Shown: in pieces, positions 8,119 through 22,200 of the stretch | How positions within the stretch are numbered: position 1 is the first letter of the stretch | Layout: the number at the start of each line of letters is the position of its first letter | IMG/VR virus record: IMGVR_UViG_3300009183_006933 | Span: 1 to 22,357 of that record | Origin: a virus | Length of the DNA stretch: 22,357 bases | Direction: 5' to 3' (one strand) | Translations under genes and position numbers: made by a program | The notes under the pieces: generated by a model | What the model saw: the letters and a program-made list of their open reading frames with translations, nothing else | The model's database searches: none | Told to the model about the DNA's origin: nothing

Positions 8119-11100
8119 TTAGTAAGTTATTACTATTGATAATTCTAATGCTTGGATGTGGAAGTTATATTTTGGTATGTTTCCTAATGCTTTTTTAGCA
8201 GACAAGTGAGCGAAAGCCAAATTCTTTGGATCATTAAACTTCCAAAATTGTTGATTAACAAGTGGAGTCGTTATAGCTGATCCTGCGCTATAAGAATTAG
8301 CATAAGTATAGTAATTTTTAGGGATTAAATTATTTAAACTAATTGCTATGTTATTAGAAACCCCTTGTTTTATTTGAGTGGTGTTTACTTGTGCGCTTGT
8401 GAGTAGATCTTCACCATTATAGCACCAAACTTTAATCGTCTTTGTTTGAGTTGGCAGATCTGGAATTTGTATTGCTATTGATAGACTGCCTATATTTGCT
8501 AGCACTGGAACTCCAGCATAGTATAGATCATTGAGGTTAGAGATAGCAAATTGATTATTAATACTAGCCCCATCTAAAGAGTAAACTGTGACTGCTTGAG
8601 AAGAACTAGACAAAGAAACAGAAACGTTCTTTGGCGAGATGCCTATATCTTTGCCATTGTCTTCTGGAGTAATGTTGATTACGTTAAATGGAGAAGAGAA
8701 TATTCCGTTATTAATTAGCGCATTAAATATAGTCTTAGAGTTCGCTTCAGTATTTGAAGTGGTAGAATTTACAAGAACGCTGTTGTCTAATGCGAAGTTT
8801 AGATTTTGGTCATTTACGTCTTTCTTTAGTTCTCCAGACAAATCGCTTAGTCTAATAATAGAAATATCAAAAAGCTCTTCGCCATCTTTTCCAAAAGAAC
8901 TGTCTGCAATTGCGCTTCTGATTTGGAATATATTTGATACAGCGCCTTCAGGAGATGCCCCTTCCAATAGTTTTGTTTGAGAGGCGGAATAGGGGCCAGT
9001 ATTTTCTACTAATGCTCTGGTAAATATTTTGTTGCCATTTAAAGGATAAGCTCTCTTGCTTTGAGGTATATTAGGGGAGATAGAGGAAGCCGTAGCAATA
9101 TTCCCTCTATTCTGCAAAGAGAGTTTGTAATAAGCATTACTACCATTTGGATCTGTAGAAAGGATAGTATTATCTTGAGTGGCTGTTAAGTTGGTATTTA
9201 AAGTAGGCTTATAAACCACACTCTTTCTGCTAATAGTATAGTTAGGGAATACAGACGATGCAGCAACAGAGGCATCGAAAATATTTTCTATCATCATCGT
9301 TTGATTCAAAGTGAAGTGAAGGTACTTGCCGTCAGCCTCTCTTATTATATTCTCTAAAGAAGCAGTATAAGTTGGGTCAACAGCTTTCTTTATTCCAATT
9401 GGGCTGCTGATTTGAGGATAAATTTTACCAATACTGTCGCCTTTATCAATAAATAAAGAAGTATAGTCTAGGATACTTCTTGTCGTTCCATCTTCTGAAG
9501 AGTTCGCCCATGCAGACATTAAAGAATCTTGTGCTATTAAATAAGCTTTATAAGCAGTTGAATCAAATGGCTTTCCATTAGTATCAGTGTTTGAGTTAAA
9601 TGAAAATACAAGTTGACTATTTGGTACTGATATAAAATGAGAATCTATAATTTCATTTCCTGAAGCGTCTTTAATTCCAAATGGATAAGTATCTTTATAT
9701 ATTACGGTATTAACTCCAAATTGGAAGTTCTGAGAAATAGGAACCAGCAGCAAATAGAATTGATTAACGAAAGAATCTGCGAAGCTTTGATTAATTACAA
9801 TGTTTAAATAATTTGAAGCGTTTAAAGTAGTTATTGAGAAAGAGTTGCTTTTATTTGTTAAGATTGCATCCAAAGAAGATTTTAAATCTGAATCTTGATT
9901 GTCATATGTGAATAGCAAAAATCCATTTTCGTTTTTAAAATCATTTGATGTAGAATATAATCTTCCTCCTACAAAGCTAGACTTGTCTATAGCAATAGAA
10001 AAGTCTCTGTATTTTGCTCTGCTAGTGCTAGTCAGATAGGTATATATATTATTTGTTGGAATGATATTATCATCACTGAATATGTAGCTAAACGGATCTG
10101 AAGAGGCTTGATACTTTAATAGGCTAGCCATGAAAGAGGCTTTTGTTGTGACTTTTTCAGGAATCATTCTCAGTCTATATGGATAAGTGGCATTATTAAA
10201 TTTTGTCGAATCAGAGATGAAGTCCAAAGGAATGTTGATTGCCAAAGAACTTGCTGGTCTAAGAGTTTTAGCATCTGTTGGTGTTGACGAAGCAAAATAC
10301 ATGTTCCTGTTTTGAAGGACGGGTGAATTAAAAGCGTAACTGACGCTATTTAAAGAAACATTTTTTGGATTAACATCTTTATATGTGATTGGTATACCAG
10401 CCGGGAAAGAGGTTATGTTGGTATCAGTACTATCTTTGCCTTCTGTATAAGACAATGGAGATTCATTGTTAATGTTTACTCCATATACTCTTATGGCTCC
10501 ATTAGTAAGGGGCTTGTTTATTGAAGCGCTTATATATGATTCATAAAGATTAATAGGGACAAACACAGATCCGTTGTTTGTATTTGGATTAAAATCAGAA
10601 CGATAATCATTACTAGAAAAGACTTTAAATCCTATTGTACTAGTCTTAATTGATGAATCATAATATATACCCAAGTCAATGTTGCCTCCGTTTAAGGTAA
10701 ATAAAACATTTGATGGAGAAGAAGCTTCGCTCGCGGGAGGCTTTGGAGGTGTGATATTTAATCCAGATTCTATTTGAGCATACTTTAAGTTGTATACTTG
10801 AGAACCTAATACTGTGTAATTAGTCCCTTCGGTAGACTCTTGAATTCTAAAGATTCTGTAAAAGTCATAATCGCTGTCTGTAGAACCGTCAAGATTGCCA
10901 GAATTTTCCAAAGCCCAAGTTATTGACTTTGGAGAAAGCCCAGAAGCTCCAGTGAAATAACCTAATCCAGTTACATTTAATCCAGCGGCCATCGTAGAAG
11001 TCGCCCCCGTGACTCTAATGGAATCATAATTTTGACCAGTGATCAAGTTCCCGCTATTAATAATAAATGAATTAGTTAAGGGTTTTCTATATTCATTATA

Positions 11101-14100
11101 GTCATTACTTGTGGCGACGGCCCCATTGATGCTAGGGTCTAGATTATATTTAGGAGAAAGGATAGTTAATTTATAGTTTTGACCTCCAGAGAAATTGAAA
11201 TCGAGCTTCCGATCTAAAGTCAATGTCCCAGTAGTGGTATTTACATCTCCAGAAATGTCAATATAATTTAAGCGCCCACCTACTGTTTTATATTTCTTGT
11301 TATAGTCATGGACTTTAATTACGTCTCCGGGTTTTAGGTAAATACATTCTGGGCCAGCTTCAAAAGATACAGTTTCTGTTTCGTTATACTCTGAAGCAAG
11401 TAGCCATCTACCAAGTCTTTGAGCTTGTCCTCTGCTTGTACATCCAAACGCTGTCAACTCGCTTTCTCTAAAACCAAATTTTCTAACTGCTTCCACATTT
11501 TCTACATATTCTACTGCTGGTTTATAAAGGTTATTCTTATCAATATAACGGACATAAACAGCAGAGTTTCTATCCTTTAAAGAAGTAGACTCGTAATTAA
11601 AGTTACCATCTATTACATTAGAATTCGTGAACGAATAAACAGGAGTCTCTTCTGGCATGTCGTTTATTGAAAAAATAAATCCATTTGAGTAATAGAACAT
11701 ACCTCTAAATATTGAAGCCATATCAGCCAATACTTTAAGAGCATCTTCTTGAGTTTGGATATAAAGGTTACAAGAGAATCTAGGTTCTACGCCGCCAAAG
11801 CCGTCGCTAACTAGTTCGTCGCAATATTTAGCAATTTGATACAAAGACCATTTATCTACGTCGCTTTCAGAAACATAGTTCCCTGCCCCATATCTCTTAT
11901 TAGTTAAGAGATCATAGAAACACCAAGCTGGATTGTCTGTCCATTCTTTGCTGGCTTTAAAAGTGCCATCCCAATAATCAGAGGAAGATGCATAAGATTG
12001 AACTACAGTAGGAACATAAGTAGTTGTTTTCCTTGGAAGGCCTTCCGCGAGTAAAGTTCTTGAATAAGCTTTAGAAAGAGAAACTCTATCAAATTCAATT
12101 TGATTAACTCTAATAGAGTCAGCAAATCCAATAAATTTTCCTCCAAAAGTGCTGGCGCTTTTATCTGTAAAGATTTCTATTTGAGAGTTATTATTGATAA
12201 AATAGGCAGGAATGAATGGCCCAGTTTTAGTATTCGTTTTGTTAAAAGCGTCAAAAATTTGGGCACCTTGTAAAGGAAGTAAAACATTAGTTTGACTTGA
12301 AGATAAACTTACAGAGATGGAAGACGCATCAAAAGTTTTGTCTATATTTAGATTATTGTAAGTATTTAAAGCTTCTTGAGATAATTTTTCAACCGTTTGT
12401 CTTTCAAAAAGTACGCTCGCTTGATCTCCTTGATTAGCGTCTGTAGTCGCTTCAAATGGTCTCCAATCATATCCTGCACAAAGAGTTTGATAATAAGGGT
12501 AATTTGCTATATTTACATTGCACTGTATCTGTTTTTCTAAATCTAAAAGAACGTCTATCTCTGCGTTTAATATATCTGGGAAATAGTCTTTTGCAAGTTG
12601 TCGATTACCATAAACGACAGCGTTGTTAGGTTGATTAAAAGTGAATGCAATATATTTCTGGCAGTTCTTTGGAAGATTAGATATTTCTGTATAGTCAGTA
12701 TCTTCTCTAAATGAAACTCCTTGGACCATTGAGGTCCACTGATTTATGGTTAACCCTAATTCTCTTGCTAAAGCTGCATCGTCTACGTTAACGGCTTTTC
12801 TTAAAGTAGCGAAGTAAGTGTCAATCCAAGTCATATCGCTGGCATTAATATTGCTAATTTTGCTTGCGTTTGGTTTAAATAATAGAGTTGGTTTTACTAT
12901 TTTTGGTAATACATATAAACTGACTCTTGTGAATTTGCCTTTAAGTATTGTAGTTGAATATTTCGACGTATCTAAGGTTTTTGTTATAGTATAATTTTTG
13001 GTTTCATTACTAGAAATAATATTTAAAATTAAACTAGTATTATCGCCATCTAATTTTATACTAAGATTAAACTGACTATCTCTATGCATTAAAGAATATG
13101 TTCCATTTGTAATAGCTGGGTCTAGTTTTAAATAGAAATCACAATAAAAACTACAAAATCCTTGCTCTTTTAAAGTAAAGTTTTGTTGAAAATTCCAATT
13201 TTTCCAATATCTTTGAGGTATCAAGTCGAATTCATAATAATTCGCTGGAGTAAGCGTAGAGATGGTGTAAGGCTTGCTCCTCTGTCCGTTAGCACAGATA
13301 GTTTTCAAAGGCATCTTCAAATAAGTACTGGCTCCAACACTAAGAACATTTGTGTTATAAGCGCCAGTGGTCGTGGCGTAAGTTAAACTGTTTCTAGTTA
13401 CGTTCCATTTATTATTAAGCCAGTTTCTAACTTTAATAGAGTCAGTCTTAGAGAGCGCTTTTTTATAAATTAACACTTCAAAAACAGTGCATTTACTTTT
13501 CTCTGATGTCCAGTTCACTGCAAGCCCTTGCGGCGCGACAATGGTATTTGTTGCTTTTATATAATAAACGCTATTTTGCCAAAACAAATTTACATCTTTT
13601 GCACTGCTGACACTTGCTCCTATAATATATGTATTTGAATCATTAGTCGTCCCTCCCCAATAATTAGAACGGTTAAATTGACCAAAATTTCCCGGTAAAA
13701 CGCCATATACCCCATCACCGATAAGGAAAGTATTATTATGACCATTCCATTGTCCCAATGCCCAGTTATTAGGGTTTGAATACGAAGATAAAATTCTTTG
13801 TCTTTCTGAAACAGTAGTAACTGTACTGTCCCATTTTGCTACAATAAATACAGTATAGTTTCCGTTTGCATCACAAAACGCAGTTGGAGCTTCTGCGTCG
13901 ATAAATTTTACATATTGACTAGTGGTAAATGATATTCCATAGCTGTTTCCGTTTGGACTTGTCTCGGAAGACCCGCTTCCTTTTGTCGGCTTACCTGCTG
14001 CACCAACTGGAGAAGCATATGTTCCATTGCCTAAAACGCATTTTACAGGTGATCCAGCGACACTGTTATTCCAAGTAGCTACGGTTCCTGCTGTAGCCGT

Positions 14101-15504
14101 AGCTACATTTGCGTCAAATTGGGCATATAACCCATCTGTAATTGGAGGAGTTGTGTCTGTCGTGTTCGCATAGGAATTATCTTCTCCTATAAAATAATTA
14201 GGATCAATAGTCTTATCAGTCTTAGAGTATGCGTTAGTAGTAGTAATTGTGCGAGTTGCGCTTTCTCCATATGTTTTTGTTAAGGGATCATAATTAGAAG
14301 GAACTTTAACTTTTAATAATTTTACATCATAAGTCCTTTCTGGAATTTTGGAAAAATAAGCTGCATTAAATTTAGAAGTAACAGTCGCTGAATTTGTATA
14401 CCTAAACGAAGAAGAATAAATTTCAGTAATACTTTCTAGAGAAACGAAAGAACTTCTTGAAGAATAAGTATCTTCTGGAGTAACTTTTAATACAGAGATA
14501 TCCCAACCTATCCAATTTTCATTTACATTCAATGCGGCAAAAACTTTAGACATGTCAAAGACAATTTGTTTAGAATATCCTTGAGTGACTTTACCTTTAG
14601 ATTCTATTTCTATTACTTGAGGGGCTGCGTCTAAAGCGATAGAAAGATCTTTAGTGTCAGGAACAGATTTAGCGGCAGAGGAAACTATATCAAGGACAGC
14701 AGCATTTGGATTATAACCTTCTTTATAAACTGCACTAATTTTTACTCTTATTTTAAATTTATAATAAAGAACAGATCCAACGCCACCTTTTATGCTAGTT
14801 GCATCATTTTGCAATTGTCTGTCTGTCGTACTTAACCCGAAAGATGAATCGCTTACACTAGCGCTATCAACACCCTCTATTGTTAAAGTTTTATTTGCAA
14901 CAGGAGCTAGGTCTTGATATTTTAAAGTAACATAAAGAGAAGATATTCTAAAATTTAAAGATATCTTTTTGCATTCTTTATTCGATATACGGTAAGATCT
15001 TTGATAGTCAGCGACTTCATCTTGAGTTGCGGCTAGAGTATTTGGCCCTCTCAATCTTTCTCCGATTGAGCGAATGTAAGAAACATTGTCAAATGATCCA
15101 TTTACAGAAGTTCCATTTGGACCTCCATTTGTAACATTTACATTTATTTGTTGAAAATTATATCTATCTTGACTATCTAAGATAGGAGTTTGATTCCATT
15201 GAATGGATTTCAAATAGTTTACTTGCGAAGTCTCTCCCACTGTTATAGGGTATTCATTATAAGTTACTTTACCATATCCCAAGTTACCAATATTTCCACT
15301 AAAAACATATTGTCCATTTACTAATCCATCAATTGGCCCTTCAGAAAGAAGATCTTTTACTTTTCCAAATTGATAAACATTATAATTAGTTCCATTATAA
15401 ATAAATCCTTCTGGATCTTCATATGCCGCAGTCGGTTGTGCTGCTTGTGAGCCTCCTCCGCCGCCAAAACCTTTTATGTATTTAAAATTGTCAAGATTGT
15501 TCAT
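8119..15504 (-). CDS. J: Lambda J-like tail tip / host specificity protein with large insertion (2461 aa)
   Basis: J forms the distal tail tip and contacts the receptor. Residues 49-64 (VKDLLSEGPIDGLVNG) match the start of lambda J. Residues 355-413 (ITEI, PERTYDV, VPSNYDPLTKTYG) match the segment before lambda's WDGTFK. The match resumes at 1177 (YWDGTFK) and runs through DNPAWCFYDLLTNKRYG, VDKWSLYQIAKYCDE, DGFGGVEPRFSCNLY, LKDRNSAV, AFGCTSRGQAQRLG, PGDVI and TLTLDRKL (about 1434). The roughly 760 residues between are an insertion (separate entry). FN3-like sequence ends near 1687 with RVYGVNINNESPLSY. The last 770 residues are beta-rich, Ser/Asn-rich and unrecognised, and are the likely receptor-binding region. 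Lambda J is about 1130 residues, so this is more than twice as long. The start is 2 nt after the I stop, with an A/T leader and no Shine-Dalgarno site. Confidence 0.95.
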   Translation of the reverse strand: MNNLDNFKYIKGFGGGGGSQAAQPTAAYEDPEGFIYNGTNYNVYQFGKVKDLLSEGPIDGLVNGQYVFSGNIGNLGYGKVTYNEYPITVGETSQVNYLKSIQWNQTPILDSQDRYNFQQINVNVTNGGPNGTSVNGSFDNVSYIRSIGERLRGPNTLAATQDEVADYQRSYRISNKECKKISLNFRISSLYVTLKYQDLAPVANKTLTIEGVDSASVSDSSFGLSTTDRQLQNDATSIKGGVGSVLYYKFKIRVKISAVYKEGYNPNAAVLDIVSSAAKSVPDTKDLSIALDAAPQVIEIESKGKVTQGYSKQIVFDMSKVFAALNVNENWIGWDISVLKVTPEDTYSSRSSFVSLESITEIYSSSFRYTNSATVTSKFNAAYFSKIPERTYDVKLLKVKVPSNYDPLTKTYGESATRTITTTNAYSKTDKTIDPNYFIGEDNSYANTTDTTPPITDGLYAQFDANVATATAGTVATWNNSVAGSPVKCVLGNGTYASPVGAAGKPTKGSGSSETSPNGNSYGISFTTSQYVKFIDAEAPTAFCDANGNYTVFIVAKWDSTVTTVSERQRILSSYSNPNNWALGQWNGHNNTFLIGDGVYGVLPGNFGQFNRSNYWGGTTNDSNTYIIGASVSSAKDVNLFWQNSVYYIKATNTIVAPQGLAVNWTSEKSKCTVFEVLIYKKALSKTDSIKVRNWLNNKWNVTRNSLTYATTTGAYNTNVLSVGASTYLKMPLKTICANGQRSKPYTISTLTPANYYEFDLIPQRYWKNWNFQQNFTLKEQGFCSFYCDFYLKLDPAITNGTYSLMHRDSQFNLSIKLDGDNTSLILNIISSNETKNYTITKTLDTSKYSTTILKGKFTRVSLYVLPKIVKPTLLFKPNASKISNINASDMTWIDTYFATLRKAVNVDDAALARELGLTINQWTSMVQGVSFREDTDYTEISNLPKNCQKYIAFTFNQPNNAVVYGNRQLAKDYFPDILNAEIDVLLDLEKQIQCNVNIANYPYYQTLCAGYDWRPFEATTDANQGDQASVLFERQTVEKLSQEALNTYNNLNIDKTFDASSISVSLSSSQTNVLLPLQGAQIFDAFNKTNTKTGPFIPAYFINNNSQIEIFTDKSASTFGGKFIGFADSIRVNQIEFDRVSLSKAYSRTLLAEGLPRKTTTYVPTVVQSYASSSDYWDGTFKASKEWTDNPAWCFYDLLTNKRYGAGNYVSESDVDKWSLYQIAKYCDELVSDGFGGVEPRFSCNLYIQTQEDALKVLADMASIFRGMFYYSNGFIFSINDMPEETPVYSFTNSNVIDGNFNYESTSLKDRNSAVYVRYIDKNNLYKPAVEYVENVEAVRKFGFRESELTAFGCTSRGQAQRLGRWLLASEYNETETVSFEAGPECIYLKPGDVIKVHDYNKKYKTVGGRLNYIDISGDVNTTTGTLTLDRKLDFNFSGGQNYKLTILSPKYNLDPSINGAVATSNDYNEYRKPLTNSFIINSGNLITGQNYDSIRVTGATSTMAAGLNVTGLGYFTGASGLSPKSITWALENSGNLDGSTDSDYDFYRIFRIQESTEGTNYTVLGSQVYNLKYAQIESGLNITPPKPPASEASSPSNVLFTLNGGNIDLGIYYDSSIKTSTIGFKVFSSNDYRSDFNPNTNNGSVFVPINLYESYISASINKPLTNGAIRVYGVNINNESPLSYTEGKDSTDTNITSFPAGIPITYKDVNPKNVSLNSVSYAFNSPVLQNRNMYFASSTPTDAKTLRPASSLAINIPLDFISDSTKFNNATYPYRLRMIPEKVTTKASFMASLLKYQASSDPFSYIFSDDNIIPTNNIYTYLTSTSRAKYRDFSIAIDKSSFVGGRLYSTSNDFKNENGFLLFTYDNQDSDLKSSLDAILTNKSNSFSITTLNASNYLNIVINQSFADSFVNQFYLLLVPISQNFQFGVNTVIYKDTYPFGIKDASGNEIIDSHFISVPNSQLVFSFNSNTDTNGKPFDSTAYKAYLIAQDSLMSAWANSSEDGTTRSILDYTSLFIDKGDSIGKIYPQISSPIGIKKAVDPTYTASLENIIREADGKYLHFTLNQTMMIENIFDASVAASSVFPNYTISRKSVVYKPTLNTNLTATQDNTILSTDPNGSNAYYKLSLQNRGNIATASSISPNIPQSKRAYPLNGNKIFTRALVENTGPYSASQTKLLEGASPEGAVSNIFQIRSAIADSSFGKDGEELFDISIIRLSDLSGELKKDVNDQNLNFALDNSVLVNSTTSNTEANSKTIFNALINNGIFSSPFNVINITPEDNGKDIGISPKNVSVSLSSSSQAVTVYSLDGASINNQFAISNLNDLYYAGVPVLANIGSLSIAIQIPDLPTQTKTIKVWCYNGEDLLTSAQVNTTQIKQGVSNNIAISLNNLIPKNYYTYANSYSAGSAITTPLVNQQFWKFNDPKNLAFAHLSAKKALGNIPKYNFHIQALELSIVITY
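11983..14265 (-). other. About 760-residue insertion in J with LamG-like lectin domain
   Basis: The insertion covers J residues about 414-1174. Residues about 457-702 look like a concanavalin A/LamG-type jelly roll: DGLYAQFDANVA, then TVATWNNSV, YTVFIVAKWD, a central WALGQWNG and, at the end, EVLIYKKALS followed by VRNWLNNKW. That ending is typical of LamG_3-type domains. Residues about 766-870 have strands compatible with a second beta-sandwich, but this is weak. Residues about 890-1000 are helical and include LARELGLTINQW. The rest, up to about 1174, is unrecognised. Confidence 0.75.
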
Positions 15505-15506
15505 TT

Positions 15507-16247
15507 TTATATATTGTTTATTTGACCTTTAACATCTGCTGATGTTGATTTAATATCTAGTTCGACATTGTTCATGGATATCTCAACAGTTTGAGATCCT
15601 ATTTTCATTCTTCCGTATCCAACTGGTACAGGTCCGCCCTCTCCAAGAATGTTAGAAGGTCCGTCAAATAAGTAATTAGGCTTGCCGCCGCCGTTATCTA
15701 TTTTTCTAAAGTCATCAAATTTTGGAGGAGACATCATTAATAAAGTAACACCTGTTACAGCTAAACCAATACCTGCTCCAATTAAAGCGCTAGAAATCAT
15801 TGCAGTAGAAGTGGCTCCAGCAGCGAAAGTGCTTCCCATAAGCGTAAATCCTCCTGCTGCTCCAATTCCTGTTGCAATCAATATAACACCCAACACTAAG
15901 GCTAGTATTCCTTTTGTGCTGCTTCCACCTCCTCCACCGCCAGCGCCTTTGATAATAGGCACAATATCTAAACTCTCTAGTTTATCATTTATCATTACTA
16001 GTTCAGAGTTAAAAATAGATTCTGGCCTTTCTAAAGAAAGGTCTTCTGATGACATCATTTCTCTTTTATTAACGAGAATCTTGTACTCGACGCTTTTCTC
16101 TGCGGCACCAATTAAATACTTTAATAACTTTCCTTTCGACAAGACTTGAATAGCTCGCAGAGCTTCCTTTATGGAGTTTACTTTTAAAGTCCAATTTTCT
16201 CTACCTACATGTTCTGCTATTTCACCGTGTAAAGTTATGTTAGTCAT
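15507..16247 (-). CDS. I: Lambda I-like tail assembly protein
   Basis: This 246-residue protein matches the lambda tail assembly protein I family, needed to build the tail tip. Residues 1-98 form the N-terminal domain, starting ITLHGEIAEHVG with EALRAIQVLSKGK near 28-40, as in the family's ubiquitin-like fold. A run of glycines at 101-108 leads to a long hydrophobic Gly/Ala segment at about 113-172, enough for one or two membrane-spanning or membrane-active helices. The C-terminal motif FDGPSNILGEGGPVPVGYG with MKIGSQTVE (194-222) is a hallmark of this family. The stop is 2 nt before J, and the start overlaps K2 by 8 nt. Only a weak purine-rich site precedes the start. Confidence 0.9.
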   Translation of the reverse strand: MTNITLHGEIAEHVGRENWTLKVNSIKEALRAIQVLSKGKLLKYLIGAAEKSVEYKILVNKREMMSSEDLSLERPESIFNSELVMINDKLESLDIVPIIKGAGGGGGGSSTKGILALVLGVILIATGIGAAGGFTLMGSTFAAGATSTAMISSALIGAGIGLAVTGVTLLMMSPPKFDDFRKIDNGGGKPNYLFDGPSNILGEGGPVPVGYGRMKIGSQTVEISMNNVELDIKSTSADVKGQINNI

Positions 16248-16986
16248 AGAGGCTGTTTCTCATTATGTAAATTACCCATTTTTTATAGCCATTAGAAAGT
16301 CTTTCGGTGATAGAAGTGCTATTACCGGGATGGTGCAAAATCATATCTTTACCCAAATAAACCGCACAATGAATAGGAAAATTGAATTTCTCTGTTCTCA
16401 TTATCAGAACATCGTTTTTCTTTAAGTCGTAAACCTGCCTGAAACCATTGTACTCAAAGTATTTTTTAAGATAATCGTCTTTATCTTTTAAAGATTCTGC
16501 TTCATTAATGAATCTTTTACTCGCCATTTTATTATACTCTTCTTCAGAAACGTTATTTTTAAGAATTTCTAGTTCTGAACATAGATGAATATTCAAATCA
16601 TGACAGTAATAATCTTTTACTAGCCACAAGCAGTCAGCAAACCCCAAAAGGAAAGGTCTTCCTGTGTACTGAATTTTGTAACTATTTGGGTTATAAATAT
16701 AGAAAGATCCGCTTTGTTTATTGTAAACAACACAGGTTAAACCAAGTCTTTCCGAAACAATCTTGTCTGCTTCTGAAATAGCATCAAAATCAATATGAGA
16801 ATGATAATATGCAATAATGTCAGACTGACCATTCAAGTCCATCATAAACTCAGTAGCAGAATTAATTAGATTTTCTTTTTTTTGAATCGCTAATCCGCCA
16901 TCTGTGCGTACTAAAAATCCACACACTTCATTATTGGAAGTATTAGCGTGTTCAATGATCTGATTTTTTATTTCTTCTGTTAACAT
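16240..16986 (-). CDS. K: Lambda K-like tail peptidase, second copy (K2; JAB/MPN + NlpC/P60)
   Basis: Two predicted peptidase domains are present, as in lambda K. The N-terminal JAB/MPN metalloprotease domain shows Glu20 and the metal motif YHSHIDFDAISEAD (His62, His64, Ser71, Asp74). The gap from the second His to Asp is nine residues, one fewer than in K1 and in the usual HxHx10D. The C-terminal NlpC/P60 domain (about 110-248) shows catalytic Cys119 in GFADCLWLV, His206 in PIHCAVYLG and a third polar residue, His218, in MILHHP. NlpC/P60 enzymes cut cell wall peptides, so a role in local peptidoglycan opening or tip maturation is likely. A strong Shine-Dalgarno site at 16996-17001 drives it from within K1, and the 7-nt overlap suggests translational coupling. 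It is a paralogue of the gene just upstream. Confidence 0.92.
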   Translation of the reverse strand: MLTEEIKNQIIEHANTSNNEVCGFLVRTDGGLAIQKKENLINSATEFMMDLNGQSDIIAYYHSHIDFDAISEADKIVSERLGLTCVVYNKQSGSFYIYNPNSYKIQYTGRPFLLGFADCLWLVKDYYCHDLNIHLCSELEILKNNVSEEEYNKMASKRFINEAESLKDKDDYLKKYFEYNGFRQVYDLKKNDVLIMRTEKFNFPIHCAVYLGKDMILHHPGNSTSITERLSNGYKKWVIYIMRNSLYD

Positions 16987-17738
16987 ATTTGATTACTCCT
17001 TACGAAGCAATAGATCCTTCTTTTCTCTGCGTCTGTGAGTTTTTCAATGATTGATTTTTTATTTCTTGGCTGGTGTAAAATATAATTTTGTCCAAGGTAA
17101 ATACCAAAGTGAGAAGGGTAATTTTCTAGGTATTTGAATACAATGATATCGTGTTTTTTGGCGTTTTCTATTCCTTCGATCTTAACGAAATTTTCTTTTT
17201 CAAAGAATTTATCAAAATTTTGTGAGTCGCAAAACTCTGCTAATTTATTTTTTACAAACTCTGGATAGTCCTTATCCCAATCTGCTGTTCTTTCATAATG
17301 AAAAATCTTAATGCCGAATTCTTCATTGTAATAGTTTTCTACTATTGATAAGCAGTCAGATACCCCAATCACAAAGTCTTTATCAATGTATTTATTGTAG
17401 TAATTTTCTGGAGAATACTCTTCAAAAGAATCCCTTTTCAGTATATAAACTATGTTTTTTAGGTTAAGCTTGTGGCTTATCTGCTTATCTAACTCTGAAA
17501 AAGAATTATCTTGTATACAATGAGAGTGATAAATGCCAACAATTTTGCCATTCATTGCTGCTTTTAAGTAGTCTAGCTGACATACAATGAATTCATTCTC
17601 TTTATCTTGAGCGACGTTTCTGCATGGAAAGGCTTCTAATACATTTTTATTATTTAAAAGCAAGAGGCCGCAACATTCATCTGGATTTTCCTTTAATGAA
17701 TGCGTTTTTATTTTAGCTTTTATCTCATCTGAAATCAT
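16980..17738 (-). CDS. K: Lambda K-like tail peptidase, first copy (K1; JAB/MPN + NlpC/P60)
   Basis: This 252-residue protein has the lambda K layout. The JAB/MPN domain has Glu21 in DECCGLLL and a complete JAMM motif, YHSHCIQDNSFSELD (His71, His73, Ser81, Asp84), with the standard ten residues between the second His and Asp. The NlpC/P60 domain has Cys129 in GVSDCLSIV, His210 in PSHFGIYLG and His222 in YILHQP. Both active sites therefore look intact. The start codon shares one base with the L stop (TAATG), a typical coupled arrangement, with a purine-rich GAGGGG sequence shortly upstream. It shares layout and many residues with K2 (SDC/ADC, YLG, ILH[QH]P, IxERL/IxEKL) and probably arose with it by duplication. 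Whether both enter the virion cannot be seen. Confidence 0.93.
   Translation of the reverse strand: MISDEIKAKIKTHSLKENPDECCGLLLLNNKNVLEAFPCRNVAQDKENEFIVCQLDYLKAAMNGKIVGIYHSHCIQDNSFSELDKQISHKLNLKNIVYILKRDSFEEYSPENYYNKYIDKDFVIGVSDCLSIVENYYNEEFGIKIFHYERTADWDKDYPEFVKNKLAEFCDSQNFDKFFEKENFVKIEGIENAKKHDIIVFKYLENYPSHFGIYLGQNYILHQPRNKKSIIEKLTDAEKRRIYCFVRSNQIC
16996..17001 (-). promoter_or_regulatory. Strong Shine-Dalgarno site for K2
   Basis: The minus strand reads AAGGAG here, 9 nt before the K2 ATG. It lies inside the last codons of K1, so K2 can be initiated independently although the genes overlap by 7 nt. Confidence 0.75.
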
Positions 17739-18865
17739 TACATCGCCCCTCTATTGTAATTAGATACTCCATAAAATCCTCCAAAAGGTAAAGGATTTTC
17801 TCCAAATCTAATTTTACAACCTTTAATGCTTTTAGAGCATTGATCTGCTAGCCAATATTGTCCATTAGGGGGAGGTATATTAATTGGGACATCTGATTTT
17901 GCGACGAAATAAAAGTTTATCTCTTTTTTCGCTATAAAAACTACATCTCCTTTGTAATATTTAGTTGATGACCCCCATTCGCTAGGATTATTTGAGATAG
18001 GGATGTTTGACACTTTAAACAAAGGCATATCTTTAATTACTTGGTCATCTTCTGTACCGCAAACTGGTGCTGATACTCCAAGTGAATCGCTTTGATTTGG
18101 TATTGGGGTAATTGTTCCATGAGCGTCTGTAGTTAATCTATTTTGATATTCGTACAAACATCCTTCTCCCCTGTATTGCCAAGGACAAATATAACTTAAC
18201 ACTCTTCTTTTAGGTAACCTTACTCTATCTAGGTCTATTGCACTTGAAAGCTCAAACTGAATACTGTTTTTATTTTCTGAAGACTTTCTATCAAAGTAAT
18301 AAATATCTCTAGGAAATTCACAATTTGGATCAGGATCAAATCCATCTGGTATGATTAATTTATCTGGAGATAGCGCAGAAGTGCCGTCTGTTTGATAGAA
18401 ATTGCTTCTGTCAAGAAACTTAGCGAAGGTTCTAATCCTTGTAAATTTAGCGCCAATTAAGTCTCCAAAGTTAACAGTCCCCCTAAATAAAGAGAAAACA
18501 TCAAGCATATCGTCAGAGAAGCTGATTTGCACTTTAGGTTTTGGAAATACACCTCTAGAAGCTAATTCAAAACCTTCAGTTGAAAGAGGCGCTGGCAGAT
18601 AAGCATTACCTTTCCAGTAAATAATATTTCTACCCAACTTAAGATTATTATGCAATCTAATGACGCTATAATTAAACATCCCGCTGTTTGTTCCGGGTAA
18701 AGTTAACTGAAAGTTCCTTAAATTAATTACAAATTGAGAAGCATTTGATATTCCAAGATTGGTTAAATCAACTTCAAATAAAGAAATAATCGAAGAAGGT
18801 TCAAGAGAGAAAAATTCTTTATTTACTTTTAAAGATGCGTTTTTGATTTCTTGTTGAGTAGCCAT
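17738..18865 (-). CDS. L: Lambda L-like minor tail protein with [4Fe-4S] cysteines and an inserted carbohydrate-binding-like module
   Basis: This 375-residue protein matches the lambda minor tail protein L family. Seen in order are SLFEVDLT (28-35), RLHNNLKLGRNIIYWKGNAY (70-89), a KVQISFSDD strand, TRIRTFAKFLDRSNF (142-156), PRDIYYFDRKS (185-195) and KIRFGENPLPFGGFYG (351-366). Lambda L binds a [4Fe-4S] cluster with four cysteines spaced C-x8-C and C-x6-C. The same spacings occur here at Cys227/Cys236 and Cys343/Cys350. In lambda about 22 residues separate the two pairs; here there are 106. The insert contains SEWGSSTKYYKGDVVF ... FVAKSDVP ... YW (295-338), resembling CBM5/12-type modules and the N-terminus of M. 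It starts 4 nt after the M stop and overlaps K1 by one base. Confidence 0.92.
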   Translation of the reverse strand: MATQQEIKNASLKVNKEFFSLEPSSIISLFEVDLTNLGISNASQFVINLRNFQLTLPGTNSGMFNYSVIRLHNNLKLGRNIIYWKGNAYLPAPLSTEGFELASRGVFPKPKVQISFSDDMLDVFSLFRGTVNFGDLIGAKFTRIRTFAKFLDRSNFYQTDGTSALSPDKLIIPDGFDPDPNCEFPRDIYYFDRKSSENKNSIQFELSSAIDLDRVRLPKRRVLSYICPWQYRGEGCLYEYQNRLTTDAHGTITPIPNQSDSLGVSAPVCGTEDDQVIKDMPLFKVSNIPISNNPSEWGSSTKYYKGDVVFIAKKEINFYFVAKSDVPINIPPPNGQYWLADQCSKSIKGCKIRFGENPLPFGGFYGVSNYNRGAM

Positions 18866-18869
18866 AATC

Positions 18870-19424
18870 TTATGCTGGGACTTCTTCGAAGGTAGCTTTT
18901 ATAGAGAAATTATTAAAGAATGGATTAGATGATCCCCATCTTCTACATACAAATAATTTGGCATCTGTAGCCGCAACTGTATAAGGTGCAGATGGGTAAT
19001 AAATAAAAGCTGTCTTGGCTGACCTTGCGCTAAAGAAATGGAGAATAGCAGTACATTCGTCTAATGTTAAGCCATCAAAATTCAATTCAAAATTGAGCAG
19101 ATTAAAGTTAATTTGATCACTTACTCTTTTTTCATAGCCATCTCCATATTTTATTACGCTAACTTTAGGATCAAAATTAGCTTGAGTTTGGTAAGAAGGC
19201 TTCCAAATAAACAATGGATAGTCTTTTTTGACAACAGGATGTTGAAAGAAGCCTCCCCAATAAGCATCCGAATTAGAAATAACGCTAGAGTAAACTGGCG
19301 CATTATTCGCGGGCACAGCGGCTTTAGCGTAATAATACCGATTATCTGTGTATACGATAATATCATGCTTATTGTATGCGACAGAATTACTCCATGAACT
19401 AATATTAAAAATTGAACTAGACAT
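18870..19424 (-). CDS. M: Lambda M-like minor tail protein with N-terminal carbohydrate-binding-like module
   Basis: This is the first gene of the minus-strand tail tip operon. Residues about 68-183 match the phage minor tail protein M family: PLFIWKPS, then PKVSVIKYGDGYEKRV, NFELNFDGLT, HFFSARSAKTAFIYYPS, FVCRRWG and a final FSIKATFEEVPA. Lambda M is about 109 residues, so the first 65 or so are extra. They contain WSNSVAYNKHDIIVY (11-25), RYYYAKAAVP (29-38) and AYWGGF (54-59), the W...Y..xD[IV]V...YY.AK...P...YW pattern of CBM5/12 (chitin-binding-like) modules. The closest relative visible here is the insert in L. The protein is predicted to join tape measure and tip. Two AAAGG units lie just before the start. 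Confidence 0.9.
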   Translation of the reverse strand: MSSSIFNISSWSNSVAYNKHDIIVYTDNRYYYAKAAVPANNAPVYSSVISNSDAYWGGFFQHPVVKKDYPLFIWKPSYQTQANFDPKVSVIKYGDGYEKRVSDQINFNLLNFELNFDGLTLDECTAILHFFSARSAKTAFIYYPSAPYTVAATDAKLFVCRRWGSSNPFFNNFSIKATFEEVPA

Positions 19425-19481: not shown

Positions 19482-20300
19482 ATGGCATTCTCTAGAATAA
19501 ACAAGAAAAATTTGGATTTCTACCTGAATCAGAAGCAGATTCATGGTGTTCAGGATATCCAATGCTCTTACAAAATACCAGTTGACCATAATAAGTTCAT
19601 TGGTATGAGTAGCAGTACCCATACGCCTCAAGGAGCCAGAATAGGAAGTCTTTCTGTAAACAGCTTGCTAACAACAAGTAATGACTTTCTTGCGCTAACT
19701 GGTGATATCGCTAACTATGGGTTCATAACAAAAAAAGCAAATCCTAGCTCCAATATATTGTTTGGATTCCAAGGGTGTTATCTGAATTCTTACTCTTGTT
19801 CTGCTCAGATAGACGAAGTGCCTATGGTCAGAGCTTCGTTCGATATATTTAATGATGCTGGTACTATCCCTTCTTCGGGCGCTTTTAATTCTTCAAGCGC
19901 TGTTTCTTTAGTTAATTCTAATACTATCGATATTGGAATATCAGATTTTGCCACAAACAGAGTATCCTCTTTTAATCTAACAATAAATACTCCAAGATAT
20001 CCAGTATACTATATAGGCAGTCAAACACCCTTTTCTGTTACAACTGACTACCCAATAGGAGTAGAGTGTGATTTCACTATTTCGCAAGACAGCTATACTC
20101 TTCAGAAATTATCTACTTTGAGTTTTGATTTGAAAAATGCAAACAATTTTTATATAAATACTAAAGATTTTAATGGAAATGCTGTTAATTTTAACTTTGC
20201 TAATGCATTATCTTATTTTATTGATGTTTCCGAAGACTTCTCTGCTAGTGTAAATTCTGCTGTAGAGGTTGTGGTAAAGTACAAGGGGTTTTTTAAATAA
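19482..20300 (+). CDS. Putative tail-tube-like structural protein, paralogue 1 (272 aa)
   Basis: This is the first gene of the rightward block. No named family is recognised with certainty. The protein is beta-rich, without signal peptide or membrane segment, and looks like two related halves. Half one (about 20-127) ends with GCYLNSYSCSAQI followed by VRASFDIF. Half two (about 160-271) starts with SFNLTINTPRYPVYYIGSQ. The first-half ending lines up with GLYFQNGYITNYSIKG/VDVEVKVF in the 359-aa protein and with GMFYPSRFSLNI/ATASFSNY in the 269-aa protein. A 'strand, loop, G-YxxSYS, strand' layout with two halves per chain is seen in phage tail tube proteins, so that is my best guess. The ATG lies 57 bp from the M start with no Shine-Dalgarno site, only AATAAAATAAG. 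Confidence 0.8.
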   Translation: MAFSRINKKNLDFYLNQKQIHGVQDIQCSYKIPVDHNKFIGMSSSTHTPQGARIGSLSVNSLLTTSNDFLALTGDIANYGFITKKANPSSNILFGFQGCYLNSYSCSAQIDEVPMVRASFDIFNDAGTIPSSGAFNSSSAVSLVNSNTIDIGISDFATNRVSSFNLTINTPRYPVYYIGSQTPFSVTTDYPIGVECDFTISQDSYTLQKLSTLSFDLKNANNFYINTKDFNGNAVNFNFANALSYFIDVSEDFSASVNSAVEVVVKYKGFFK

Positions 20301-20303
20301 GGA
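20298..20303 (+). promoter_or_regulatory. Shine-Dalgarno site for the 20311 gene
   Basis: TAAGGA overlaps the stop codon of the preceding gene and lies 7 nt before the next ATG, a good match to the 16S 3' end. It fixes the start at 20311 and suggests coupling. Confidence 0.65.
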
Positions 20304-20310
20304 AAAAGGG

Positions 20311-21120
20311 ATGAAATATTTTAATGAGTGTGACGTATTCGTCAATTCGATTTTTGGATCAGGGCTAATCCAAGCTCAGAATGCTTCTGTTAATGTAAAT
20401 AGAAGTATAGATTCTACTTATACATTTGGAAGAAAAAACACTTCTCAAATGATCAAAACTAAGGCAGACGAAACAACTGTTGATTTCTCTTATTTTTTGT
20501 TTTCTGCTGATCCTATTTTTAAGTGTTTCGATTACCTAAAAACAGGAGTTTTTATTAATAGTTTTCCAGAGTCTAGAATTCCTATAGTTTTGAAAATTGC
20601 TGGTGTTAGCGGGATGTTCTATCCTTCTAGATTTTCTTTAAATATTGTGCCAAATTCGAAAATTCAAGCTACGGCTTCTTTCTCTAATTACTCTGATATT
20701 TCGGGATCTTTGCTTGGCAAGACAACTTCTAATATATTTAGCAGTGGATCTGGATTGGCGCATTCTTGGAATGTTAGAGTTTCTGGCGCTGTATCAAATA
20801 CAGCTTATAATGTGCTTGGTCTTGATTATTCTCTTTCTGTAAATTGGAATCCAATCTATTCCGTGGGTCAAAGAAGGCCAAGACAGATAGACCTTTCGGC
20901 AGGGCAAGAAGATTTTAATTTCACAATTGAGGACTTTAATTCTAATTTTTCTAATTCTGTTGTCGCTACAGCAGAAAATGCAAAAGTTAATATTCGTACT
21001 TTCGGAGGCGATTCTATTTTTATTATAGATACGTCTGGAAGTAAAATAGATTCATCTACCATGACAATTAATGTTGATGAATATGCAGAAAGTAAGATAT
21101 CATTAAAAAGGAGTTTCTAA
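20311..21120 (+). CDS. Putative tail-tube-like structural protein, paralogue 2 (269 aa)
   Basis: The protein is all-beta in appearance and lacks signal or membrane segments. Half one (about 18-130) has SVNVNRSIDSTYTFGRKNTS, TVDFSYFLF and GMFYPSRFSLNI, followed by ATASFSNY. Half two (about 165-269) has DYSLSVNWNPIYSVGQRRP, FNFTIEDFNSNFS and a closing YAESKISLKRSF. The 'NxNRS...YTFGRKN...VDFSYFL' pattern is what I expect of phage tube-type proteins, where a basic loop precedes a strand. Both neighbours share this plan, and the closing strand lines up with YARSEFTLKQDF in paralogue 3. It starts 10 nt after paralogue 1 and its stop abuts the next ATG. A tail shaft role is inferred from fold-like pattern and context, not from a family match. 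Confidence 0.8.
   Translation: MKYFNECDVFVNSIFGSGLIQAQNASVNVNRSIDSTYTFGRKNTSQMIKTKADETTVDFSYFLFSADPIFKCFDYLKTGVFINSFPESRIPIVLKIAGVSGMFYPSRFSLNIVPNSKIQATASFSNYSDISGSLLGKTTSNIFSSGSGLAHSWNVRVSGAVSNTAYNVLGLDYSLSVNWNPIYSVGQRRPRQIDLSAGQEDFNFTIEDFNSNFSNSVVATAENAKVNIRTFGGDSIFIIDTSGSKIDSSTMTINVDEYAESKISLKRSF
21108..21113 (+). promoter_or_regulatory. Strong Shine-Dalgarno site for the 21121 gene
   Basis: AAGGAG lies 7 nt before the ATG at 21121, inside the last codons of paralogue 2. The stop TAA and the ATG are directly adjacent, so the two genes are probably co-translated. Confidence 0.8.
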
Positions 21121-22200
21121 ATGTTTTTTAATTATAAAAATTGTACGTTTAGCTTTAGTGGCGTTGATATCCTCGCCTCTAATGTTAACATGTCTCTTGA
21201 TTCATCTAACACTCCTGTCTACAATGAAGAATTTAAAAAGAATTCTTATTCTTATGTAGCCGAAGATACAGTAGATACTAGTTTTTCAATTTCTTATTAT
21301 TTAACAGGTAAAGACTTTGTAAAAGAATACCTATTAGGGGTTAATTCAGAACAAGGAATTTCTGGAAATTTTTGCGGTTTGTATTTCCAAAATGGCTACA
21401 TTACAAACTATTCTATAAAAGGATCTCCTGATTCTTTGGCTAAAGTTGATGTAGAAGTTAAAGTTTTCGAGCCTCTAAAAGGAGCCTTCTCTGCAACTAC
21501 TCCTATTAACAGACCAGAATTCACTCCTTTAAATTTCTCAAGTTTTTATTTGTCAGGTAACTTAGATGGAACGCCTTTTGATTCAAATGGTTATAATTTT
21601 ACTAATTTTAGTTATCAATACCAGAGAGAGGTTCAGAAGTACAATAAAGAGGGTTCCACTACTTTTGATCAAAGCGGCAGGGCGTATTTAGGAAAGAGAT
21701 CTCAGTCTCTTTCTTTTGAATTAGATAATTTTAATGCGTCTCTTCCTTATTCTGGCGTTCCTTGTACTTTTTCTATTTCTTTACAAACAGGAGCGGTGCC
21801 TTTAGATACGCTTTCTTTTGCGGGGATAGTCTCTTCAAAGAGAACTTCTGTAGAGACTCAAGGTTATGCAAGATCAGAGTTTACATTAAAACAAGATTTC
21901 TCACATTTTAAACCAGTAATAACCGATTTTACTCCAAGAGTCATTTTGCCCGGAGCGACAGTTACTATCAATGGCAGTAATTTTATTAATGTTAAAAAAA
22001 TATTTTTTGGTAATACTGAGGCTATTTCTTTTAACCCAGTTTCTACTTCTTTAATTACTGCTGTGGCTCCTATTAGTTTAAAAGGTGCTGCTGCTATTTT
22101 AATAGATACAGAAGAGACGAGTTCTTCTTCTATTTTTAATTTCAAAACAAGTGTACTCGTTAACGATATAAGATTATCTTTACAGTTCCAAGGATTATAA
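21121..22200 (+). CDS. Putative tail-tube-like structural protein with C-terminal IPT/TIG domain, paralogue 3 (359 aa)
   Basis: Residues 1-258 repeat the two-half plan of the previous two genes. Half one has NVNMSLDSSNTPVYNEEFKK, TSFSISYYLTGKDF and GLYFQNGYITNYSIKG, then VDVEVKVFEP. Half two has FSYQYQREVQKYNKEGS, LSFELDNFNASLP and YARSEFTLKQDF. Residues about 264-342 add an IPT/TIG immunoglobulin-like domain: KPVITDFTPRVILPGATVTI, NGSNFINVKKIFFGNTEA, then TSLITAVAP and AAAILIDTEE. Lambda's tube protein V also carries a C-terminal Ig-like domain on the tail surface, which supports a decorated tube or tube-related role here. The IPT/TIG call is firm; the tube assignment is inference. The gene directly abuts paralogue 2. 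Confidence 0.82.
   Translation: MFFNYKNCTFSFSGVDILASNVNMSLDSSNTPVYNEEFKKNSYSYVAEDTVDTSFSISYYLTGKDFVKEYLLGVNSEQGISGNFCGLYFQNGYITNYSIKGSPDSLAKVDVEVKVFEPLKGAFSATTPINRPEFTPLNFSSFYLSGNLDGTPFDSNGYNFTNFSYQYQREVQKYNKEGSTTFDQSGRAYLGKRSQSLSFELDNFNASLPYSGVPCTFSISLQTGAVPLDTLSFAGIVSSKRTSVETQGYARSEFTLKQDFSHFKPVITDFTPRVILPGATVTINGSNFINVKKIFFGNTEAISFNPVSTSLITAVAPISLKGAAAILIDTEETSSSSIFNFKTSVLVNDIRLSLQFQGL

Follow-up and report, generated by a model that had tools for sequence, protein, structure and literature searches.

The two cysteine pairs in the minor tail protein L of phage lambda are 22 residues apart, whereas 106 residues lie between the corresponding pairs in the L protein of an uncultured virus, IMG/VR record IMGVR_UViG_3300009183_006933. 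The whole record of 22,357 bases was analysed and is referred to here as the window. The locus raises the question of what is held between the putative cluster ligands of this protein, whether other phages use the same position, and what such an insert might do at the tail tip.

L is a lambda-type tail tip protein with an enlarged loop

The window encodes M, L, two copies of K, I and J on the minus strand and in lambda gene order. The following features of L are relevant to the cluster region.

17738..18865, minus strand: L, minor tail (tail tip hub) protein, 375 aa, by PF05100, PHROG_18 and 8iyk_L
18188..18865, minus strand: L residues 1-226, tube-like hub domain (HDI equivalent), by structure match
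18158..18187, minus strand: first putative ligand pair C227-x8-C236, invariant in 35 L, aligned with lambda C173/C182
17816..17839, minus strand: second putative ligand pair C343-x6-C350, invariant in 35 L, aligned with lambda C205/C212

L matched PF05100 Phage_tail_L above the gathering threshold (E 1.4e-35, 122.9 bits against a cut-off of 25) and PHROG_18 with E 5.7e-53. In the VIA structure comparison its model matched lambda L (8iyk_L) with a Z of 15.5 over 155 residues, and model residues 11-216 superpose on 8iyk_L 5-162 at 2.8 A. The protein is a lambda-type minor tail protein L with a tube-like hub fold in the model, and the likeness to lambda gpL and gpM (8iyk) comprises fold, cysteine ligand spacing and the order M-L-K-I-J. 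A BFVD search returned L-type and tube-like matches; one of these, from an uncultured phage, is named ChiA1_BD domain containing.

Some neighbouring genes deserve a short description. K is a tandem duplicate (window 16240-17738, minus strand) encoding two JAB plus NlpC/P60 proteins with 28% identity over their length; all close relatives examined have the pair, and distant relatives apparently have one K. J (8119-15504, minus strand) is 2461 aa long, with Phage-tail_3 at residues 1251-1400 as the only recognised domain. Three consecutive genes lie on the plus strand at 19482-22200, the first with a weak match to Phage_tube_2 and the third with a C-terminal IPT/TIG domain, and it is possible that this trio represents a decorated tail-tube set.

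L contains six cysteines (182, 227, 236, 269, 343 and 350), and only C227, C236, C343 and C350 are invariant among 35 relatives reaching down to about 35% identity. In a HMMER alignment to 8iyk_L these four fall on lambda Cys173, Cys182, Cys205 and Cys212, which surround the cluster density as ligands in the cryo-EM structure (PMC10721106). The spacings C-x8-C (227/236) and C-x6-C (343/350), which an earlier note made from the DNA letters had given as those of lambda L, are borne out by this alignment. We regard the four residues as putative cluster ligands, a case that is made by alignment to lambda. It would also be conceivable that they form no cluster here and that the ligand framing is wrong: the AlphaFold2 model is of low confidence around L 211-237 (pLDDT 37-43), leaving the cluster region poorly modelled, and lambda homologues lacking a cluster exist (PMC13243795). 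We consider this very improbable given that exactly these four cysteines are invariant and that they align to the lambda ligands.

The insert was correctly delimited in the earlier note, as window positions 17840-18157 encode exactly residues 237-342, i.e. the 106 residues from C236 to C343, compared to the approximately 22 that the note gave for lambda and 21-22 in lambda-type proteins. The gap measures 91-159 residues in nearly all members of the clade carrying the module described below, the exceptions being one of 77 and one of 266 that holds an extra F5/8C domain. It is 21-22 residues in S-H1-like L and in nearly all lambda-like L, and at most 25 in all 57 prophage L proteins in which it was measurable. 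A short loop is the norm among L proteins.

The insert contains a module with predicted CBM5/12 fold

The insertion-point map shows that inserts begin after the END.P loop and stop just before D.CxK. In the present L this divides the 106 residues into two parts, and the module comprises only residues 288-342 or so, the C-terminal half.

18005..18157, minus strand: L 237-287, linker plus the usual short L loop, preceding the module, by insertion-point map
17840..18004, minus strand: L 288-342, predicted CBM5/12-fold module directly before the third putative ligand cysteine, by VIA; conserved in 93 distinct modules
17906..17914, minus strand: aromatic triad F318-Y319-F320 of the L module, columns 99-100% aromatic in 93 distinct L modules

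Within L 237-287 the stretch APVCGTEDDQ corresponds to G.PVADEND of lambda-type L. The module itself was modelled by AlphaFold2 with block-mean pLDDT of about 72-89 for L 291-340, and in the VIA comparison L 288-342 matched the A-1(L) fibre (8kec_a; Z 6.5, 1.7 A over 50 residues), Milano (8fqc_Q1; Z 5.9, 1.5 A over 45), Streptomyces griseus ChiC (1wvv_B; Z 5.6, 1.9 A over 45), MmChi60 (9fbp_A; Z 5.6, 1.4 A over 42), and ChiB and 2d49 (Z 4.6-5.0). Z values of 5-6 over 45 residues are modest, and their weight comes from the many chitin-binding chains that fall in one range and from the low rmsd. According to the model, L 288-342 folds separately and adopts a CBM5/12 (ChtBD3) fold, and both the model confidence and the structure matches agree with the expectation of the earlier note that the region of 290-340 would form a fold of its own. 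The pattern W..S..YxKGDVV..YFVAK..VP..YW that the note had pointed out is present and is conserved in 93 distinct L modules, and therefore is not due to chance. The strongest conservation is found at probable core and junction residues, namely Y, PPN, YW and the D before the cysteine, and the core is retained across L proteins that are just 32-42% identical.

Membership in the CBM5/12 family is a different matter. The L module did not match Pfam CBM_5_12 (PF02839), the best E value among 35 L being 0.16, and the M module described below reached 13.0 bits against a gathering cut-off of 26.2 (best E 0.024 among 33 M). When the L module was searched by sequence against Pfam and the PDB, only L itself was matched, and the similarity of the module to ChiC was no better than that of shuffled controls. 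In chitinases an exposed aromatic pair, at the AKWW position in S. griseus ChiC, serves chitin binding. None of the 93 L modules is aromatic at the two aligned columns, and in 71 M modules these columns are 0 and 3% aromatic. Since the Pfam scores stay below the cut-off, the aromatic dyad is missing and the similarity to ChiC does not exceed that of shuffles, family membership is not supported, and we describe the module as CBM5/12 by predicted fold and not by family. The carbohydrate-binding-like module proposed in the earlier note thus stands as a separately folded loop insertion in the model, but a gathering-level Pfam match was not obtained and the dyad is absent.

The chitin-binding CBM5/12 domains of ChiC (2d49/1wvv), Serratia marcescens ChiB and MmChi60 resemble the L and M modules in fold (1.4-2.4 A over 42-46 residues) and share the W..Y core pattern. 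However, these domains are enzyme-borne and possess the aromatic dyad, whereas the present modules lack it, score below the Pfam cut-off and are carried by the tail tip. The nearest structural matches, A-1(L) (8kec) and Milano (8fqc), are CBM5/12-fold modules of phage fibres, as is that of the F2-pyocin fibre (25vf). The F2-pyocin tail-fibre module is a profile match (E 1.5e-4) and was matched by both the L and the M module. All three are located in fibres or receptor-binding complexes, in contrast to the L module in the cluster loop.

A related module in M and distribution of the pair

The neighbouring gene M carries a second module of this kind.

18870..19424, minus strand: M, minor tail protein (distal tail protein), 184 aa; PF05939 with E 7.8e-15, lambda gpM 8iyk_E with Z 13.8
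19254..19406, minus strand: M 7-57, second predicted CBM5/12-fold module in an N-terminal extension, by pLDDT, 9fbp_A and the L profile

The N-terminus of M is about 65 residues longer than that of lambda gpM, which at 109 aa is without the module. M residues 11-40 were modelled at pLDDT of 90 and above, and M 7-57 matched MmChi60 (9fbp_A 506-550) in the VIA comparison (Z 5.8, 1.7 A over 44 residues). When the profiles of the L and M modules were compared by hhalign, they matched with a probability of 87% and E 4.2e-6, while control pairs gave 0.07-0.6, and by this profile comparison the two modules are related. The columns equivalent to the L triad are 97-100% aromatic in 71 M modules, and a triad of the form [YF]Y[FY] is kept at 97-100% in L and M modules; it might form another binding face or an interface. 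Beyond L and M no further module was found in the 22,357-base window, and Pfam searches of J and the tape measure protein yielded no CBM.

The L module was found at 183 loci in aquatic IMG/VR records, corresponding to 101 distinct L sequences, some of the 183 being duplicate fetches of the same contig; L and M modules occur together in about 100 distinct cases. Every contig with an L module and a complete M also encodes the N-terminal extension of M (94 distinct pairs), although some extensions had diverged beyond the reach of the module profile and were identified by eye. In the six exceptions the M gene is truncated at the end of a contig. Three apparent counter-cases were dismissed, as the frame lay upstream of the start codon or the match late in the frame. 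In lineages that lack the L module, M is short. The carriers represent one related group, and the pairing should therefore not be read as a count of independent events. A tblastn search of 50,697 cultured-phage records revealed neither an L holding the greater part of the module nor an M with the N-terminal module, and when prophages in 84,980 species genomes were first searched with the window family, no relatives were detected.

Other domains in the same loop

Several other L proteins carry inserts of a different kind at this point. An L of an uncultured phage (L197) has a B_lectin insert above the cut-off (E 2.9e-10), and another (L366) has a B_lectin match with E 1.3e-29 within a 718-residue insert; further inserts gave weaker B_lectin matches. 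The exact QxDxNxVxY motif, which we take to mark mannose binding, occurs in 24 of 33 distinct B_lectin inserts and in none of the shuffled copies. These two L proteins share the insertion point with the present L, but their insert is a lectin fold of the D-mannose-binding type whose motifs are intact, and no M module was detected there. B-lectin (D-mannose binding) domains in the L cluster loop were also seen across L322-L354. In a further L of 652 aa (L145, 469-2424) an F5/8C domain (E 9.7e-7) followed by a CBM-like module is located between the cysteine pairs.

Inserts in this position have been described before. In the hubs of RcGTA (g13) and roseophage R4C the cluster domain is split by an oligosaccharide-binding-like domain, roughly 82 residues long, that lies between the cysteine pairs and for which the authors proposed sugar binding (PMC7296036, PMC10276861). 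The design is therefore known in kind, and its uniqueness, which the earlier note had implied, is not supported. The RcGTA and R4C insert differs from the present one in that it resembles the insertion domain of the phage LKA1 tailspike and a T4 hub domain, and not CBM5/12; in the VIA listing the RcGTA hub matched L only at 11-219, while L 288-342 matched CBM5/12 modules. No CBM5/12 module has been reported for the RcGTA and R4C distal tail proteins, whereas the present M has one. The literature searched did not describe the versions with CBM5/12-fold, B-lectin and F5/8C domains or the pairing of L and M modules, and a search for ChtBD3 together with phage tails found nothing.

It is conceivable that the loop tolerates any insert, and that the module is a neutral or lineage-specific insertion without specific function. 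In line with this, L proteins of S-CBS4 and relatives (L050, L372, L377 and L385) carry inserts of 180-275 aa in this loop that resemble a helical hairpin bearing a small domain and gave no Pfam match, and the inserts of S-CBS4-like L, L372 and L377 are coiled-coil-like, with coiled-coil-like ends, and without a known glycan-binding family. We nevertheless regard neutrality as improbable, as the module core is conserved across L proteins with 32-42% identity, a sister module exists in M, and several unrelated inserts are of glycan-binding type.

Possible function of the modules

The reading that we favour, at slightly better than even chances, is that the loop serves, on the outer face of the tail tip, as an insertion socket for glycan-adhesion modules, occupied here by a CBM5/12-fold module in L and accompanied by one in M. 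L would keep its lambda-type cluster domain and use the surface loop between the cysteine pairs as insertion site, where different tailed phages would place different glycan-adhesion modules; the present group would have a CBM5/12-fold module in L and a related copy at the N-terminus of M. Lambda L forms a trimer and lambda M a hexamer, with the cluster domain on the tip exterior (PMC10721106). Assuming a lambda-like stoichiometry, nine modules (three from L and six from M) would ring the tip. They may make weak multivalent contacts with the host surface polysaccharide, which would hold and orient the tip before J engages its receptor. Sugar binding by the L and M modules is putative, and weak multivalent adhesion to glycans of the host surface would be their most likely use. 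This reading is favoured by the predicted folds, by the relatedness and co-occurrence of the L and M modules, and by the B-lectin, F5/8C and oligosaccharide-binding-like domains at the same point in other hubs. Against it stand the missing aromatic pair, the concentration of conservation at probable core and junction residues, and the similarity to ChiC that does not exceed that of shuffled controls.

The main competing explanation, possible but somewhat doubtful in our view, is that the modules are structural or docking domains. Their CBM5/12 fold would have lost sugar binding and would serve contacts between proteins instead, for instance by linking the M ring with L or J or by holding side fibres in place. 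The loss of the aromatic dyad, the strong conservation of the aromatic triad and of PPN..YW..D beside the cluster, and the strict L/M pairing would all fit such a role. The neck fibre of A-1(L) has a distal carbohydrate-binding module that failed to bind the host (PMC10966104), which favours docking and calls for caution with the adhesion reading. Against docking speak the real lectins with intact mannose-binding motifs in the equivalent loop of relatives, the sugar binding proposed by the R4C and RcGTA authors for the domain located there (PMC7296036, PMC10276861), and the fact that lambda-type tips assemble without any insert.

The ligand loop of L-type hubs might be a general exchange socket for CBM5/12-like, B-lectin, F5/8C and OB-like domains, so that hubs close to the membrane-facing tip, besides fibres, would set adhesion to the host surface, with M doubling the system in the present group; we give this broader view an even chance. 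The cluster domain of L is conserved and, in lambda, surface-exposed. That glycan-binding-type domains recur exactly between its ligands points to a cluster that may staple a variable loop at its base, such that adhesive modules could be exchanged without disturbing the tip. This gives the cluster a role that can be tested and indicates where host-range determinants might be sought in uncultured phages.
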